A stretch of DNA of 64,000 bases, taken from contig JAGVVL010000018.1 of the NCBI GenBank assembly GCA_018287875.1, positions 2,968,501 to 3,032,500 of the forward strand. The letters are read 5' to 3'. This DNA is from Nigrospora sphaerica (Eukaryota > Ascomycota > Sordariomycetes > Amphisphaeriales > Apiosporaceae). A program made the position numbers and the translations under genes. A model generated the notes under the pieces. It made no database searches and was not told the DNA's origin. It worked only from the letters and a program-made list of their open reading frames with translations. Shown here piece by piece: positions 34,416 to 48,828 of the stretch. Positions within the stretch are counted from its first letter, which is position 1, and every line of letters starts with the position of its first letter.

Positions 34416-36182
34416 CTAGTATGTGTAGCGAAACCGCTTATTCTGCACGTCGGTCTCATCATTTGCATCCCCTGCGGCCTCCGTAACCGATGCCTCCGCA
34501 GCGCCGTAGAGCGCGTCTCGCCGCTGGTTCTCGACGACACAGAGAATGAGATAGGCGGCACCGGAAGCCGCCATGAGCGCAAAGGCGAAAATCATGGCCG
34601 CGATACCCAAGGCATAGGTTGGTGCCTGGTGGGCGAGGAAAAGCTGAGGACCAATGATGTTTCCGATAGCTGAGCAGCTATTATAAGCCCGGTCCCCAAT
34701 GTGATATATTTAGAGGGGGGTTGGGGTTGGGGCTGGGTTTTACTCACCGTAGACCACGGCGACAGAGACTCCCATGAAGCTCTTCTTGGTGGCACCGGCC
34801 GTGTTCGACGACTGGAGGCTCAGCATGAAGACCCAGGGGACGTTGTAGAAGCCCATTATGTACACGCCCGCCAACGAAGCGTTGCGGCTCACGTGGGGAT
34901 CCAGAGCGTGCACCATGACGGCCCCGGCCAAACCGATCAGGGCCGAGACGATCCAGAAGACACAGCGCAGGTTCGGGCGGAAGAGCGAGACGGTGGTCAG
35001 GACGGCGCCGGCGATCATGGCCACTGCCGCCTGGGGCGTCGCCATGAGTGTCGTGCGTGTCGGCGAGAAACCGTAGCCCGAGATGATGAGCGGGTTGAAG
35101 TTGGTAATGCCGGCGTTGGCGACGGCGTACCCGAGCACGTTGGCCCAGATGCAGTAGCTCCGGGGGTCGCGAAAGGCTTCGAGGATCTGGCCACGGTCCG
35201 TTTTCTGGGCTGCCCGTCAGCGCATGGCGGCGAGGGGCGGAAAGGAGGCTCTCCCGCGAACCTTTTTCTGGGTTTCTATGCCGGTCTGGTTGGAGGTGAG
35301 GCGAAGAACGGCTAGCTTCTTCTCCTCCTCGTTGAAGAACCAGGCTGTGGACGGCGAATCCGGCAGCGCCACGAACAGAACGGCACCGACCAAGATGGTG
35401 ACAGACCCGTATAGGATGAAGATGTACTGCATACAGGCCCGTCAGTTCGCCGGCCAGCCGCGGCCCGAAGCGGAAAAAGCCCTTATCTCACCTTCCAGGT
35501 CGACAGCGAGCCCCGGATGCCGCCAATGGCGTACGAGAGGATGCCGCCGAAGACGCCGGCGAAGGTGTTATACCAAAACGCAGTGCGCAAGGGTTGCTCG
35601 TCGCGGCGGTACCAAGTGGCGTTGAGGACGATCATGCAGGGCAGCATGGCGGCCTCGAAGACGCCGAGGAGGAAGCGGATGGTGGCAAGGCCGGCGAAGC
35701 CGCGGCAGGCGGCCATGAGGGCGAGGGCGGCGCCCCAGAAGACGAGGCAAGCGCCGACGAAGCGGCCGACGGGCACGCGCGTCAGGAGCCACAGGCTGGG
35801 CCCCTCGGCGGCCAGGTAGCCGAAGTAGAAGACGCTGCCGAGCCAGCTGTACTCCTGCCCCTGCAGCTGCGCGTCCTCTTTGAGCCCGAACAGCGCCGCG
35901 TACCCCAGGGCGTTCTGGAAAAAGCGCCCCGACAGAGGGTTAGCAGAGCCCGGGGAGCGCGCCCGCGGCGGCGGCAGCGGCGCTGGGCGGCGGCCCACTG
36001 ACCTTGTCGAGGAAGGCGAGCGTCATGCCGAGGACGACCAGCGGCATGACGACGAGGTCCGTCTTCAGGACGATGCGGCGCGCCTGTGCCGTCGTGAGGG
36101 CCGGATACGCGTCACCGGCCTCCACCCCGACCTTGACTCGGGCGGCCTCGGGTGCCATTTTCACGTCGGCGTGGGAATCCAT
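34416..36182 (-). CDS. MFS transporter, anion:cation symporter (Dal5-like) family
   Basis: Plasma-membrane permease of the group that includes allantoate, nicotinate and other organic-anion carriers. Five exons, 36003-36182, 35492-35914, 35262-35426, 34748-35204 and 34416-34669, give 492 residues; all introns are GT-AG with 57-88 bp. Start MDSHADVK at 36180-36182; an in-frame ATG at 36227 is possible. The expected segments appear in order: TM1 VVMPLVVLGMTLAFLDKNAL; LQGQEYSWLGSVFYFGYLAA; FLLGVFEAAMLPCMIVLNAT; AFWYNTFAGVFGGILSYAIG; central loop WFFNEEEKKLAVLRL; ITNFNPLIISGYGFSPTRTT; GVYIMGFYNVPWVFMLSLQS; AIGNIIGPQLFLAHQAPTYA. Substrate is not readable. It lies between two genes for peroxisome-targeted enzymes. 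Confidence 0.9.
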
Positions 36183-39764: not shown

Positions 39765-40122
39765 CTAGTTCTCGGCCGACTGCTCCTCGGGGTAGGAGAC
39801 CAAGTAGGCACGCTTGGCGACCTTGTCGTCCTCTTCGGGGTAGGACACCAGGTAGGCACGCTTGGCGACCTTGCCGTCCTCCTCGGGGTTGGAACGCTTG
39901 GCGACCTTGTCGTCCTCCTCGGGGTTGGAACGCTTGGCGACCTTGTCGTCCTCCTCGGGGTAGGACACCAGGTAGGCACGCTTGTTGGGGCTGTTTCGTT
40001 CTTGTGTTAGAGATAATTGCCTCCTGAGCCGGAGCTGATGTGGCAAACCTGTTGGCAGTGGTTGGCAAAGTCGCGCCGAGGGCGAGAAGCATCGCGATGC
40101 TCATCATCTGTGAGCACAACAT
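39765..40122 (-). CDS. RiPP precursor peptide with Kex2-bounded repeats (dikaritin type)
   Basis: Two exons, 40049-40122 and 39765-39990, give 99 residues. The 58-bp intron has a GTTTGC donor, a CTAAC branch point and a CAG acceptor, and is the only plausible one that joins the two frames. Residues 1-23 are a signal peptide (MMSIAMLLALGATLPTTA). After a first Lys-Arg at 28-29 come five units, each but the last ending in KR, the Golgi Kex2 site. Units 1 and 4 read AYLVSYPEEDDKVAKR, unit 5 reads AYLVSYPEEQSAEN, and units 2 and 3 are shorter (SNPEED.KVAKR). The predicted core is within AYLVSYP; the acidic spacer and KR are follower-like. It is divergent from a UstYa gene 624 bp away, which supports a tyrosine-cyclised peptide product (inference). 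Any toxicity is unknown. Confidence 0.85.
39768..39977 (-). repeat. In-frame repeat array inside the RiPP precursor gene
   Basis: Five units read on the minus strand: 39930-39977 (48 bp), 39894-39929 (36 bp), 39858-39893 (36 bp), 39810-39857 (48 bp) and 39768-39809 (42 bp, last). The 36-bp units equal the 48-bp unit minus its first four codons and carry Asn instead of Tyr, so the core tyrosines are lost. Third-position differences are few, which suggests recent duplication or gene conversion between units. Confidence 0.9.
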
Positions 40123-40746
40123 GTTGGGCGGGTTTGAGGGACAAAGTTACAGATGGAGGGCTACTGGAAGCTGAACAGGGTAGAATGATCGGAGAGGCGG
40201 AAGATATCAGGCTTCTGGAGAGTGACGTCGAAATGGAATATGAATGCCATATAAATAAAATCCGGCACGCTGGTACGATGGTGTCAACGAGTACGGAGCT
40301 GAAAAAGCAACCGACCAATAGAATTTGCACCCGATCCGGACTCATGATAATCGTCGTCCTTTTCCGGGAGCTGGTATTGTCGCCGTAATCGTATCCGGAT
40401 TTCCGTGCATAGCCGCTACAGCTACGGCCTTCCACTTGCCGGACATACAAAATTCGTTTCAGAGCACGCAGACCGGAAGAGCCGCCATGACCCGTTTCCG
40501 CCATGAGTCTCGGATTTGCCGTCATGAGCGGTTTCTGCCATGAGTCTCGGATTAGCTGACAGGATGCAGCCCCCCACTCCCCACCTCACATCCGGTCCGC
40601 TTACCGGATCTTGCATTATGAAGCCGGAATCCGCGTCGGCCGCATGGGGGACCCCTAAGCACCAAATCGACATCATCTCTTTGCATCTGTCGCCTACTCT
40701 CCATTCTTTACAACCAGGCAATGAGACAGCGACGGAAAGCCTTATC
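40123..40746. promoter_or_regulatory. Shared divergent promoter of RiPP precursor and UstYa gene
   Basis: 624 bp between the two start codons. It contains a 23-bp direct repeat, GTTTCYGCCATGAGTCTCGG plus ATT, at 40494-40516 and 40531-40553. This lies within a cluster of four CATGA cores (40485, 40502, 40523, 40539). A TATAAATA run sits at 40249-40258. Repeated cores in a shared promoter are what one expects for a pathway-specific regulator, but no regulator gene is recognisable in the window and the sites are unproven. Confidence 0.45.
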
Positions 40747-41630
40747 ATGTCTGATATCGACGCAAGAAATACGGTTAACGCAGCATTGTTGCCGCGAAAG
40801 AATTGGACCTCAGGGTCACGAGGTTGTCGAGAAAATGGTGTCTTTCCATGGTTTTGGACCATGGTGGGCTTTCTGACCGTTGCAGCACTCCTCCAGAGCG
40901 TGTTGCTGTGGAAGATCAGCACAAAGCATCAGTCCCCGGAAAGACTCGGCGAGCCAAACGGCCTGTTCCCTACAGGTTAGTGTGGTACTTGTGTTTAGCA
41001 GAAAACATTGAGACAGAAATACATATGACTGACTCGTAATTGCAGTGGGGACAAAGGTTGTGCAGTTTCGAGAGAATCTTCAGTTCCACCCACTGAATGT
41101 GTCAGACCCTTCGTGGGGAGCGGTCATGCCTCGTACGTACAGCTGCCTGGACGACAAGGAACATACAAGAAGAGCTGACATATCCTTTTCCCCAAATTGC
41201 AGAAGGCGGTGGCTTTGCGGTGGTGCCCAGTGGAGATACAGAGAGTCTACGCCTGCCACCCCCTATCCGCGTGGGTGGGAATACGGCATATAATGTCGCC
41301 GTTTTCCACCAGCTGCATTGCCTACACACCCTAGCAGCGGAATTCCAAGGGCTTCTAGCTGCCATGCGTAGCGGCGTTTCGGCGGGAACGGAATTCCCGC
41401 CGGCTCGACTCGAGCATGTCGAACACTGTCTGGCCTATATAAAAGAATCACTCGTGTGCTGTGGCGACACAGCATTCGAAGGACAGTCTTCCAAGGTAGA
41501 GAGTCCCGCTACGAGTGGATACGGATCATACCACGTGTGTAAGGACTTTAGTCAAATCCTAGCCTGGAGCGCGAGCCACCGGGCAAGCGACATGTCTGGG
41601 TACGGCCAACATGCGCAACATAACCAGTAA
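40747..41630 (+). CDS. UstYa-family (DUF3328) oxidative cyclase
   Basis: Three exons, 40747-40975, 41046-41132 and 41203-41630, give 247 residues; both introns are 70 bp and GT-AG. Start MSDIDARNTVNAALLPRKNW. One transmembrane helix lies at about 33-55 (FPWFWTMVGFLTVAALLQSV). The lumenal domain has the two family HxxHC motifs, HQLHC at 141-145 and HVEHC at 177-181, which bind the metal. Known members install side-chain ether or C-C bonds and cyclise dikaritin peptides such as ustiloxin. Position next to a Kex2-repeat precursor fits that role. No lesion seen. Identification is firm; the reaction is inferred. Confidence 0.92.
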
Positions 41631-43446: not shown

Positions 43447-43873
43447 GATGGGCCACGAGGCTGGATGAGGGTTGTTTGGGGAAACAGTGGTGGTGATGGC
43501 GTGGCCAAGGGGGCGGCGGCGGCCAGGTCGCATAACCCTGAGGGCCCTCTCTTTCTCTACCTTTTTCTCTCTCCCTCTCGGCCTTTTGCCCGACGCGGTG
43601 TCATAGGTGAGCGAATTTCCTGACGCGAGAATGCGTGGCCCCGGTCGTGTGTGTTCGTGGGCAGTGGATAGGAGGAGAGCACGCCAAGCGTCGCGACCCG
43701 CACTTTACCGAGTACCGCAGTACCGAGATTCCCGGATCCGGATCCGGATCTGCGACCGGACAGGCCACGGCGCCGCCAAAGTACTTCCCCCGCCCCTCGT
43801 GTCGTCTTCGTGGCCGCGGCTGGCCGGCGGATGCGGTGCTGTTAAGACACCGAGACCTTTACTAGGCGCTGCG
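43447..43873. promoter_or_regulatory. Divergent promoter region
   Basis: Roughly 430 bp between the acyltransferase start and the second UstYa-like start. A short GGATCCGGATCCGGATC palindromic run lies at about 43734-43750. No further sites are identifiable. Confidence 0.35.
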
Positions 43874-44717
43874 ATGGCAAAACCGCTTGTTTCCCGCATT
43901 CGGGACTTTGTCCAGGTGGGTGGGCGCCCGGAGGGGCCCCGCGCGACGGCTGCTCGTTGGCCGTGGACGACGCTTACGCCTTCCAGGACCGCCCACAGAT
44001 CATGTCGTACAAGCATGTTTCCCTCGTCGACCCGGGCGATGAACCGCGACAGCTCGAGGGACGGGCAGAACGTATGCCGGGCTGTGGGGCCGACGCCGGC
44101 CTTTGGATCCGCGCCATGGCGTTTTTGGGGGGGGGTTGTCGTGGACCTCGTGTTGGTCACGGCGGCGCTCTGGTCGCAGCCGGCCGCCGCCGCCGTAGCA
44201 GCCGCAGCAGCGGTGCCGGCCGGGCCGGCCAGCGGGCAGCCGGCGGAGCTGTACTTTTCCGACACGACGGACCCGCCGCCGCTCCTCAACCAGAGCTGCG
44301 GGGCGTCGGTGGCGGAGGCGCGCCAGGCCGGCTGCGTCTTCGACATGCTGTCAACGGCGTGGACGCCGGCGGCGTGCGTCGATGCGGCGGTGACGGCCGA
44401 GTTCCTCGCGACCGTCACCGCCGCGGGGGTCTGGCCCTACTACCACGACAAGGCCGGGACGCGGCCCATGAGGGACCTGGCGGCGCTCGAGGCCGGCGAA
44501 TGGGTCGGCCGGGAGCTGTGGTCGACCATGCAGCTCCACCAGCACCACTGCTTCTTCACCCTGGCGGCGCATGCACATTGCCTACAACGGCGGCCCCCCC
44601 GTCGACACCGTCAGCCGCGGCCTGCGCCATACCAAGCACTGCGCCCGTATGCTGATGCACCGCGACAACCCTGACAGCGTTTCGGGCGTGCAGTCTGTGT
44701 ACTTCCGAAGCTGCTGA
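43874..44717 (+). pseudogene. Second UstYa-like (DUF3328-related) gene, frameshifted
   Basis: Plausible start MAKPLVSRIRDFVQ at 43874 with a donor-like GTGGGT after it. The next protein-like piece is AYAFQDRPQIMSYKHVSLVD (about 43971-44030). Beyond a run of Gs near 44129-44137 a different frame carries the membrane helix (VVVDLVLVTAALWS) and a lumenal domain (NQSCGASVAEARQAGCVFDM, VWPYYHDKAGTRPM, LHQHHCFFT). At the CCC run 44559-44561 the frame must change again to reach HIAYNGGPPVDTVSRGLRHT, KHCARMLMH and the TGA at 44715-44717. Both HxxHC motifs (HQHHC, HTKHC) survive in the DNA. Both shifts lie in homopolymers, so assembly error is an alternative to real inactivation. Confidence 0.65.
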
Positions 44718-44952
44718 CGGCCGGACGCGGGGATCCAGGCGGACTACTTCTCGATGGACATGGATGTGTGACTACATAGCTGCATGGAAATACGGTTGTT
44801 TGGGGGCCGCCGAGGAAGGGCTAGTTTTGGCACCCGTATCCAAAACGGCTCTTCCCTGTTACTGGCGTCGGCTGGCTATTGCTATTGTTGGACGACGTAC
44901 ATGCATCCGGCAGCCGTAACAGGAAGGCGACAATAGCATCGGATCTGTCATA

Positions 44953-44995
44953 ACGTAGATGACAAGCGAGTGGCGCAGACAAGCGAGTGGCGCAC
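44953..44995 (+). repeat. Left terminal inverted repeat
   Basis: 43 bp starting ACGTAGATGACAAGCGAGTG. Inside it the 17-mer GACAAGCGAGTGGCGCA occurs twice in tandem (44961-44977, 44978-44994), a likely double transposase-binding site. The preceding TA at 44951-44952 is the target duplication. Confidence 0.95.
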
Positions 44996-45076
44996 CTTTC
45001 GGCATCTCCACGAGAAATCAATTAATTATGCAACCACAACGCCGTAAATCAATTCAAACTAATCGGAATATGACTC

Positions 45077-46713
45077 TCAGGAGGTTTCTACATCTATTTC
45101 ACAAGTACGTGCATTATGACCGGTGTTTCCGCAGATGCCACAACGCTGTTCGCGCGGTTGCGCCCTCCTTACGCGACTACTACTCGCACGTGTTGCCTCC
45201 CTTAACTGCGCATCCACGTCCTTTTGATCTAAAAGATCTAATCCCTCGCCAATCTCGAGTGTTCCTCCTTGCCGTAGACGTGTTTTCTTCGCTCTCCGAC
45301 GTTTTGCGAGGCTAGAATTCGCCTCTCGAAGTGTCTTAACCTCCGCCCGTAAAAGGGCGTTCTCGTGCATTATCGCCATCGCACCCTTCGCAAACTGGTC
45401 GACTGCCGATAAAATCGGTGTCGGAGAGCTTCCCTGGTGACGGCGGATTCGGCTTTGAATAAAATCGGTTTGCGAAGTTGCCTCGGTCGGGTTGTGCGGC
45501 GTTTGGGAGGCCAAAGGGATAGTCGCAGCCGGGAGGCTTCCAGTCGGCGAAGGCGTTGATAACTTCACGTCGAGCTTCGAGATGACCTTGTCCGGGTTAA
45601 GAGGGACTAAACCAGCCCCGCGGAATCCGGATTTGACGTTTTCGGGTGTAAAAATCTTAACAAACGCGGCGTGGAAGGCGATGAGGAACTCGGCCTTCGT
45701 AATATGGTTCACGTGTGCCTTTATAAACCCTTCGATTTCGCGACCGTACGCCCGCTTCAATGGTCCAAAACATCCAACGTCAAGAGGCTGGAGTAGATGT
45801 GACGAATGAGGAGGCATTGAGACCGTGATAATGCTCTTCTCCTTACAGAAAGCCTGGAAATCGGCCGAAACGTGGCTCTCGTGCCCGTCGATGATCAACA
45901 TTCGATGTGTGCCCTTTGTACGCGCGGCAGTGTGTTTATCGAAATGCCGAATCCAGTCTAGCCCTGTCTCATTGTCGGTCCATCCATTGGAGGTTGGTTT
46001 AATCACCCAGTCGCGTGGTAGGGTGCTGTCGGCGTACCAGTTCGCGAGATGGTTCTTGCCCTTCACCGCTACGAATGGCGGGACGCACCAGCCGTCCGCA
46101 CACACGCCCTGGATCGCGGTAGCCCATTCTCGATTGCCAGGCTGGACTTTCTTTCGTTTGCCGCTGCGGTCGGCGCCTGTAACAACTATAGAGGACGTGA
46201 TCTGGCCCATCATGAAGCCAGTCTCGTCGAAATTGTACAGATCCTCGTCAAGGATACCGTACGTCGCCCTCATGTTGCGGAAAAGCTTGAACCAAGCCGC
46301 GATCTTTTAGGGTCCTCGCAGAGGGCCCTCTGGTAGTCGTATGCACGAGAAAGACGCGTCTTAAGTTGGGGTTGTCGCTTCACGAAGTTCGAGGCCCAGT
46401 GTATCCCGACGCGTGACGCGTCGCGCTCCGCGAGAATAACATTGGCCATCTCTTCCACATCAGGCATCCGGGGCGCGAATCCCCGCGAATCCAGGTCCAT
46501 TATATATGTGACAATCACATTCTCTTCTAGCTCCGTTAATCGAGTGCTGTTAGGGCGCGTGTCTTGCCGGGCGCGTGTTCCGTTCATTCTTCGACGTAGT
46601 GAGGTTTCGGAGACGTTATATGTCCTAGCCGCGGCTCTGCGGGTAAGATTGGGGTCGTTTTGGAGAGATTGGATAGCAAGAACCATCTGGCTTTCTTTCG
46701 ACGCGGTCTCCAT
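45077..46713 (-). pseudogene. Pogo/Fot1-type transposase, one frameshift
   Basis: About 545 codons. The first frame runs from the ATG at 46711-46713 (METASKESQMVLAIQSLQND) and encodes the psq-type helix-turn-helix (TRRAAARTYNVSETSLRRRM) and CENP-B-like DNA-binding region. At the AAAA run 46305-46308 (minus strand) the frame must move by one base to continue KIAAWFKLFRNMRATYGILD. The DDE core follows: NFDETGFMMG, MLIIDGHESHVS, and MPPHSSHLLQPLDVGCFGPL. The C-terminus carries a zinc knuckle (CGICGNTGHNARTC). Apart from the one-base loss the protein is complete, so this copy is probably non-autonomous only through that lesion, or it is an assembly error. Confidence 0.85.
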
Positions 46714-46768
46714 GTTTATTTGTGGTTATGTAGTGTCTTAAAGTTGAATTGGCGCCATTTGGCGGTAA

Positions 46769-46811
46769 GTGCGCCACTCGCTTGTCTGCGCCACTCGCTT
46801 GTCATCTACGT
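46769..46811 (-). repeat. Right terminal inverted repeat
   Basis: Exact reverse complement of 44953-44995, including the doubled 17-mer. The following TA (46812-46813) is the second target-site copy. Confidence 0.95.
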
Positions 46812-46813
46812 TA

Positions 46814-47224: not shown

Positions 47225-48828
47225 ATGGCCACCGCCTGCCGCAACGACGACGCCTTCGGTCCGACCGTGGTGGGCTACCGCGGCGGTTTCGACTTTACGC
47301 AGCTCTTCGAGGTCGCTATACTCTCCCTCCTGCCCAGCCTTCTGTTCATCGCGGCCGGCGCCGGCTGTTTCGCCGCGCAGCGCCGCGGCCCACCAGTCGC
47401 CGACCCCGACGCCCGTCTCGGGCGGCCGCCACGCGCCGCCTTATGGTCCCGCTACGCCCCCAAGTGAGTTGCCCCCCCCCCGGGCCCGCCGTGGTGGCAT
47501 CGACCGCACCTCCTGACAGGGGGACAGCTCGTCATCGGTGGCCTCGTCGCGGCCAAGTGCGCCTACGTGGCCGCTCTCGCGACAACGCCGAGCCTGCGGC
47601 CACGGCCCGTCACCCTCGCCTCCGGGGCCCTGGACCTGGTGGCAGCGGCGCTTCTGAGCCCGCTGGCGCTACTGGGACGCCGCCGGTCCCGCTATCCGTC
47701 CGACTTGGTGTGCGTCTACCTGGTCGTCACCATCCTCCTCGACATGGCCCGCTGCCGCACCCTGTGGCTCCTCTCGCAGTCGGACCGCCGCGTCTTCGCC
47801 GCCGTCTCTTTTACCGTGTCACTCGCCCTCAAGGTCCCGCTGCTGTTTCTCACCCCCCGCGGCCCGAGCCACGATGACGGTCCCAAAGCGTCCGCTCCGA
47901 CCCCGCCCCGCCCGGACACGACGGCGAGCGTCATCAGCATCAGCCTGTTTTGGTGGATCAACCCGCTCGTCCGGCTGGGCTACCGGCAGGCCTTGCGCTT
48001 GGACAACCTCTACACTTTGAGCCCGGCACTGGCCATGCCGGGCGCGACGGCCGACGCGGCCGGGGACGACGGGGCACCGGACGCGCCGAGCATGGTGCTG
48101 GGCCTTTTGCTGCACGCCGCCGGCTGGTCCGCTCTCTACCCCGTCGTCCCGCGTCTGCTGCTCATCGCCTGCGTGCTGGCGCAGGCCAGCCTGACGCGGC
48201 GCATCCTGAGCCTGCTCGCGGCGCCCGACGACGAGGCAGACCCCAACAGCAAGTATGGCCTCATCGGGGCCACGTTCCTCGTCTACCTCTGCGTGGCGCT
48301 GGCGACGGCGTGGTACGGCTATCTCCACGAGCGCGTGCTGACGCGGGTCCGCGGGTACCTCATCCGGCGCGTGTACGGGCACGCGGCCCGGCTGCCGGCG
48401 GCGGCGGCGGCGGGCGCGGCCAAGCCGTCGTCGCCGCCGTCGCCCCCGTCGCCGTGGCGCGCCAGCGTGTCTGGATGGCGGCGCTGCAGGCGCGCGTCGG
48501 CCAGACCACGGCCGTGCTTGAGGCCCTTAAGACGCTCAAAATGGCCGGCTTCGCCCGCCGCGCCGGCGCCCTGTTCCGCCTCGTCGTCACCGTCTCGGCC
48601 ACCCTGTCCCAGGTCCCGGCCATCGCGGCGTCCGTCGTCGTCTTTGCCGCCAGCCGCCGCCGCCTCGACGCCGCCTCGGCCTTTACGGCCCTGGGCTACC
48701 TGAACGTCATGACGCAGCCGCTCGCGACGGCCATCCAGGTGGTGCCCCTCGTGCTGGCCTCCTGGGTCTGTCTGCAGCGCATCCGCGACTTCCTGGCGAC
48801 GCCCGTCCACATCGACATGCGCCGGCTC
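47225..48828 (+). pseudogene. Truncated ABCC-type ABC transporter, no nucleotide-binding domains
   Basis: Start MATACRNDDAFGPTVVGYRG at 47225. The N-terminal membrane block follows (QLFEVAILSLLPSLLFIAAG), then after an intron-like GTGAGT the TMD0 helices (LVIGGLVAAKCAYVAALATT; YLVVTILLDMARCRTLWLLS) and the ABCC linker (SVISISLFWWINPLVRLGYR). The junction at about 47468-47526 does not keep phase. Near 48430-48475 the frame changes again and part of TMD1 is missing. It continues QARVGQTTAVLEALKTLKMA and LASWVCLQRIRDFL, the end of TMD1. Walker A, signature and Walker B sequences are absent. In an intact ABCC protein NBD1 would follow here; instead a UstYa-like segment begins. Confidence 0.7.

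Follow-up and report, generated by a model that had tools for sequence, protein, structure and literature searches.

Organization of the locus

Between positions 39765 and 41630 of the window (by which we mean the whole 64-kb stretch of DNA analyzed here, C10:2968501-3032500) a precursor frame with five repeat units lies next to an open ustYa gene in divergent orientation (Table 1). When the predicted intron is removed from the minus-strand stretch 40122-39765, a 300-nt frame is left that codes for 99 amino acids plus the stop codon (spliced translation). This agrees with an earlier note on this DNA, which had described a secreted-type precursor of 99 residues whose five units are delimited by Lys-Arg; each unit does end at Lys-Arg or, in the case of unit 5, at the C-terminus. 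The N-terminus of the precursor has a hydrophobic core, IAMLLALGA, with a hydropathy peak of 2.53 over 9 residues; in seven other precursor-like starts the peak goes from 2.07 to 2.91.

The splicing of 39991-40048 is a prediction made from the sequence. The CTAAC element ends 15 nt upstream of the 3' end of the putative intron and the exon side of the donor is good (CAG/GT), while GTTTGC itself is unusual when set against the fungal consensus. Only two other GTs are present in exon 1, both of them inside its first 7 bases. An alternative acceptor located 33 nt upstream, also in frame, was rejected by eye because the resulting intron, of 25 nt, would be too short.

Table 1. Position of the gene pair, its repeat units and motifs, and the neighbors identified by Pfam (coordinates of the window).
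Feature	Position	Strand	Remarks
Precursor exon 1	40049..40122	-	signal-peptide-like N-terminus MLCSQMMSIAMLLALGATLPTTAN; spliced translation
Predicted 58-bp intron	39991..40048	-	donor GTTTGC, CTAAC branch-like element, ACAG acceptor
Precursor exon 2	39765..39990	-	five repeat units and stop codon; spliced translation
Unit 1, AYLVSYPEEDDKVAKR	39930..39977	-	carries AYLVSYP
Unit 2, SNPEEDDKVAKR	39894..39929	-	without core: 12 bp missing, Asn in place of Tyr
Unit 3, SNPEEDGKVAKR	39858..39893	-	core lost
Unit 4, AYLVSYPEEDDKVAKR	39810..39857	-	carries AYLVSYP
Unit 5, AYLVSYPEEQSAEN	39768..39809	-	C-terminal, no KR after; carries AYLVSYP
Shared divergent intergenic region	40123..40746	.	624 bp between precursor ATG and ustYa
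ustYa exon 1	40747..40975	+	N-terminal hydrophobic stretch, by eye
ustYa exon 2	41046..41132	+	spliced translation
ustYa exon 3	41203..41630	+	both HxxHC motifs and stop codon
First HxxHC motif, HQLHC	41307..41321	+	residues 141-145; translation, alignment
Second HxxHC motif, HVEHC	41415..41429	+	residues 177-181; translation, alignment
MFS fragments	34.7-36.0 kb	-	Pfam; near the pair
Class IV aminotransferase	36.7-37.7 kb	-	Pfam; near the pair
Acyltransferase-3 protein	42.2-43.5 kb	-	Pfam; near the pair
MFS fragments	51.4-52.9 kb	+	Pfam

The three exons of ustYa, on the plus strand, join to a protein of 247 amino acids with no internal stop. It belongs to the UstYa family both by its match to the Pfam profile PF11807, formerly DUF3328 (E=1.1e-20, 74.9 bits versus a cut-off of 25), and by its two HxxHC motifs, so that the intact UstYa gene announced in the earlier note is indeed there. 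In an alignment with 24 of 60 relatives (25 sequences) there were 19 invariant columns, among them the H and C of both motifs. When exon 3 was compared with 56 of the 60 relatives (57 sequences) these residues were again invariant save the first H of the second motif, conserved in at least 90%. Its closest UstYa relatives come from ascomycetes, Colletotrichum among them. The best-scoring ones belong to Colletotrichum caudatum (P0001) and C. navitas (P0002), with 57% identity over 83% of the protein, and a protein of 138 amino acids (P0005, source lgn) has 68% identity across 55% of the query; Gnomoniopsis smithogilvyi has a homologue as well (P0004). No solved structure matched by sequence at E≤1, and exon 3, when modeled with AlphaFold2, gave a structure of middling confidence.

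The distance of 624 bp between the two genes, given before, was confirmed when we measured the gap. This divergent region contains six ATCCGG/CCGGAT sites; the motif can be considered no more than suggestive as a shared-promoter element, because six is also the 95th percentile of the maxima found in 300 shuffles, the highest being 8. At 40481-40553 the same region contains two imperfect direct copies of a 37-bp sequence in which CATGA motifs are found, a possible regulator site.

The repeat units and the core

The core had been placed in AYLVSYP, with its two Tyr residues. This stands for units 1, 4 and 5, i.e., three out of five, and fails for the other two. Units 2 and 3 read SNPEED[D/G]KVAKR. 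The 12 bp absent from them are those encoding AYLV, and the remaining Tyr is replaced by Asn, so that only SNP is found at the place of the core and no Tyr is left to be modified. Over the comparable parts the units differ by five bases, of which three are silent in the KR frame versus one or two in each of the other five frames. Three of the differences fall within AYLVSYPEE, and none of these changes an amino acid; this agrees with selection on that stretch, although the numbers are small.

The array is also apparent in the DNA, where two of the nine rows given by Tandem Repeats Finder, of period 48 and 36, jointly cover 39783-39965. A detector of repeated 4-mers, designed after these loci had been seen and with the rest of the window as its sole non-UstYa control, gave five rows in the 64-kb window, all of them frames of the precursor array, and nothing else passed. 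A cruder count of dibasic sites retrieved also the array in another of its frames and three low-complexity poly-Arg stretches (35158-35622, 47822-48526 and 48342-48518); low-complexity and wrong-frame ORFs obtained with the cruder settings were discarded. Fungal Kex2-processed repeat proteins (KEPs) have been defined as having three or more tandem repeats, each of 8 amino acids or longer, between Kex2 sites (Umemura 2020, PMC7329392). Applying this definition directly to the units, independently of Umemura's own program, we found five units of 10-14 amino acids excluding Lys-Arg, the last of them ending at the C-terminus.

In the protein database, searched first at E≤0.001 and later at E≤10, none of 49 candidates proved to be a relative of the precursor and, when the precursor was compared with its own genome, only its own locus was matched, as two exons. 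The core AYLVSYP is likely new, since YLVSY together with RiPP was not met in PMC full texts, a search whose scope excludes supplementary tables, where such cores might be placed.

Neighbors of the gene pair

None of the 59 tyrosinase matches listed for the genome is located in the window. The nearest listed ones on C10 are at 2711101-2711709 and 3574799-3575323, about 257 kb and 542 kb beyond the window edges. PF11807 has a single match in the window, and the one match of the genome to the Kex2-type P_proprotein is on another contig. The Pfam scan of 27 distinct window proteins, a subset of the genes, detected the MFS fragments and the enzymes included in Table 1 and no family of the methyltransferase, peptidase or isoflavone-reductase type.

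Two other features lie on the ustYa side of the pair. An ORF at 43607-44671, with no Pfam match, encodes HQHHC, which is a motif of the HxxHC type, as well as the stretch GCVFD. It may correspond to a broken or mis-sequenced HxxHC protein, because a second motif of this type, HTKHC, sits in another frame. About 3.3 kb beyond ustYa there is a DDE_1 / Tc5-type transposon (44951-46813) with two minus-strand ORFs (45080-46306 and 46273-46725) and identical inverted ends of 45 nt, each containing two direct 17-bp copies.

Other UstYa loci in the genome

We searched the whole genome (51.6 Mb, 33 contigs) with PF11807. The 52 exon-level matches, merged when they were <15 kb apart, make 25 UstYa loci that, with 624 bp at each side, represent 0.17% of the genome. 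Tandem-repeat precursor-like ORFs were found at eight of the 17 loci surveyed among the other 24, nine ORFs in all, with two of them at a single locus (C5, 4.26-4.27 Mb); at the remaining nine the repeat detector gave no array. The nine ORFs are 0.7-3.1 kb from the nearest PF11807 match. Their repeats have mostly dibasic borders in L014, L025, L027, L029 and L030, and mostly single-basic ones in L015, L019, L021 and L024. Four ORFs (L019, L021, L029 and L030) have a signal-peptide-like start within their own open frame. For three more (L024, L025 and L027) such a start was seen in a stretch apart, upstream of the ORF, where the joining is only putative; for L014 and L015 no such start was found. 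Tyr appears in the repeated unit of seven of the nine, the exceptions being L019 (APHHKTKGGKGRKQQRD) and L029 (GGGAWAWSAAHK). None of them shares AYLVSYP; RAGWLY, DEYGITMKCDSAYADF, EDYVGGFEV and GGTIY are, together with the stretch of L029, among the sequences repeated.

Some of these loci deserve a comment. L027 (C5:1315090-1315281) is a KR-repeat array near UstYa matches and near three places with tyrosinase matches (C5 1317661, 1320134 and 1323311); its set of genes is thereby more like that of ustiloxin or phomopsin than the one in the window. L019 (C1:7498734-7499999) is a long repeat ORF, 2.7 kb from a UstYa match, with many Tyr-less units that contain a His pair; di-histidine KEP types with DUF3328 neighbors are mentioned in the survey of Umemura (PMC7329392). 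The UstYa loci at C4:107823-108094 and C18:1193453-1193724, on different contigs, have near-identical match scores and the same spacing, perhaps as a consequence of a recent duplication.

Class assignment and proposed function

In the broad sense, in which UstYa is the class-defining enzyme (PMC12048977), the locus has the genes of a dikaritin, given that a repeat precursor and a two-HxxHC UstYa gene are found in one cluster; the product would have to be a peptide cross-linked through a side chain. The narrow sense attributed to Ding et al. includes a tyrosinase, multiple DUF3328 genes, a methyltransferase and a transporter or peptidase in the cluster (PMC12048977); here there is one PF11807 match in the window and no tyrosinase there among the 59 matches listed. 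The dikaritin-type reading of the earlier note thus gains support from an open and divergent pair of this kind, and from the recurrence of the pairing in the genome. The rarity that the note implied finds no support, as 1,758 of the 7,878 KEPs in the fungal survey are accompanied by a DUF3328 gene (PMC7329392) and nine dikaritin clusters have been described in one genome of Venturia inaequalis (PMC9632046). Both the pairing and its recurrence in one genome have therefore precedents, and the locus is a further example of a known gene pairing, ordinary in principle. Tyr is present in 65.6% of the repeated sequences of the DUF3328-accompanied KEPs, according to the same survey (PMC7329392).

The most likely explanation, in our opinion, is a functional RiPP locus of dikaritin type, in the minimal form that has only one UstYa, whose product would be a Tyr-crosslinked peptide derived from (A)YLVSY(P). 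The precursor transcript would be spliced, the precursor would enter the secretory pathway, and Kex2 would cleave it after each Lys-Arg. UstYa, presumably anchored in the membrane, would oxidatively link the side chain of a core Tyr to another core residue, and the acidic follower PEEDDKVA would then be trimmed by peptidases. The three units with a core could give a Tyr-x-Val ring, which would recall the Tyr-x-Ile ring known from ustiloxin and phomopsin; alternatively, each Tyr could take part in a ring of its own, asperipin-2a being the precedent. Having no Tyr, units 2 and 3 should be released as linear peptides.

In favor of this reading we count the open and divergent gene pair, the invariant columns of UstYa with the H and C of its motifs, the silent differences in the KR frame, the UstA-like flanks of the core, the arrays at eight of the 17 other UstYa loci surveyed and the Kex2-type match in the genome. 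Other observations speak against it. The unusual donor and the loss of the core from two of the five units may point to decay. Nine of the 17 other UstYa loci surveyed are without an array, and the precursor is without relatives among the 49 candidates at E≤10. Besides, no tyrosinase match is listed in the window, though the Tyr-x-Ile relatives ustiloxin and phomopsin need this enzyme (PMC7329392).

The most serious competitors are two. The precursor might be a KEP that releases linear secreted peptides, signals or effectors, the adjoining UstYa having no action on it. Indeed, 6,120 of the 7,878 KEPs surveyed have no DUF3328 neighbor and some function as linear peptides; however, in the same survey the DUF3328 counts are highest at the position adjoining the KEP gene (PMC7329392), and the UstYa gene found here is adjacent, open and divergent, next to a core with two Tyr. 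We regard such an exclusively linear output as improbable. Identity of the units with the ascomycete alpha-pheromone was rejected by eye, as the units look unlike it.

The locus could also be the remains of a former dikaritin locus, now decaying, with two dead units, a weak intron donor and its product no longer made. The units without a core and the GTTTGC donor would fit, as would the transposon with its matching 45-nt ends and the ORF at 43.6-44.7 kb that looks broken. Yet both genes retain an open frame, UstYa keeps its two HxxHC motifs and the three cores differ from one another only at silent positions, and we give little credit to this scenario. Finally, it is very improbable that the tandem array is non-coding and owes its open KR frame to chance. 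Even if several of its frames are open and the encoded protein has no database relative among the 49 candidates, the signal-peptide-like start is joined to it in frame by the predicted 58-bp intron, Lys-Arg is found at the unit borders, three of the five differences are silent in the KR frame, and a UstYa gene is adjacent, with nine comparable ORFs at other UstYa loci.

If the locus is a working one, as we favor, the product might be more specific. A single UstYa, with no tyrosinase, could make a phomopsin-like 13-membered ring from the Tyr oxygen to the Val beta-carbon in YLV(S), with the second Tyr in a further ring or free, and the Tyr-less units secreted as linear companions. This precise outcome is rather doubtful, but if true it would show that a Tyr-x-(Ile/Val) ring can be formed with no need for tyrosinase. 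In any case, AYLVSYP adds a defined core to a class with few known products. One precursor and one putative cyclase make a simple test bed, in which the Tyr-less units are a built-in unmodified control, and the genome, with at least 10 repeat precursor-like ORFs near UstYa genes (the one of the window plus the nine described above), is a good setting for the matching of UstYa proteins to cores. What we find most interesting is that two of the units have no Tyr and that the genome contains about ten loci of this type.

Comparison with known systems

DUF3328 (UstY-type) proteins are required for cyclization in ustiloxin, phomopsin and asperipin-2a, the last of which has a single DUF3328 enzyme (PMC7329392, PMC6514808). 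Like those of ustiloxin and phomopsin, the precursor described here has KR-delimited repeats and an acidic flank, and where they have a signal peptide its N-terminus is signal-peptide-like. The core lies between an acidic stretch and KR, an arrangement similar to that of UstA, with ED and KR as flanks (PMC6514808). The first Tyr of the core is followed two positions on by a beta-branched residue, as in YAIG and YVIP (PMC7329392), the equivalent here being YLVS if the Ala is trimmed. In contrast, ustiloxin and phomopsin depend on a tyrosinase, and their DUF3328 genes are 2 and 5, respectively (PMC7329392), whereas we found one UstYa and no listed tyrosinase match in the window.

The asperipin-2a locus of Aspergillus flavus, as described in PMC6514808 and PMC7329392, consists of aprA, aprY, aprT and aprR, with the core FYYTGY. 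There too one UstYa-type gene is found beside a Kex2-repeat precursor, no tyrosinase appears among the four genes listed, and the core holds more than one Tyr. The differences are the core itself, AYLVSYP, and the isoflavone-reductase-type family, not detected among the 27 window proteins scanned. With its single UstYa, the locus is closer to asperipin-2a, the minimal type, than to ustiloxin or phomopsin; the presence of a second Tyr in the core and the fact that no tyrosinase match is listed in the window point in the same direction.
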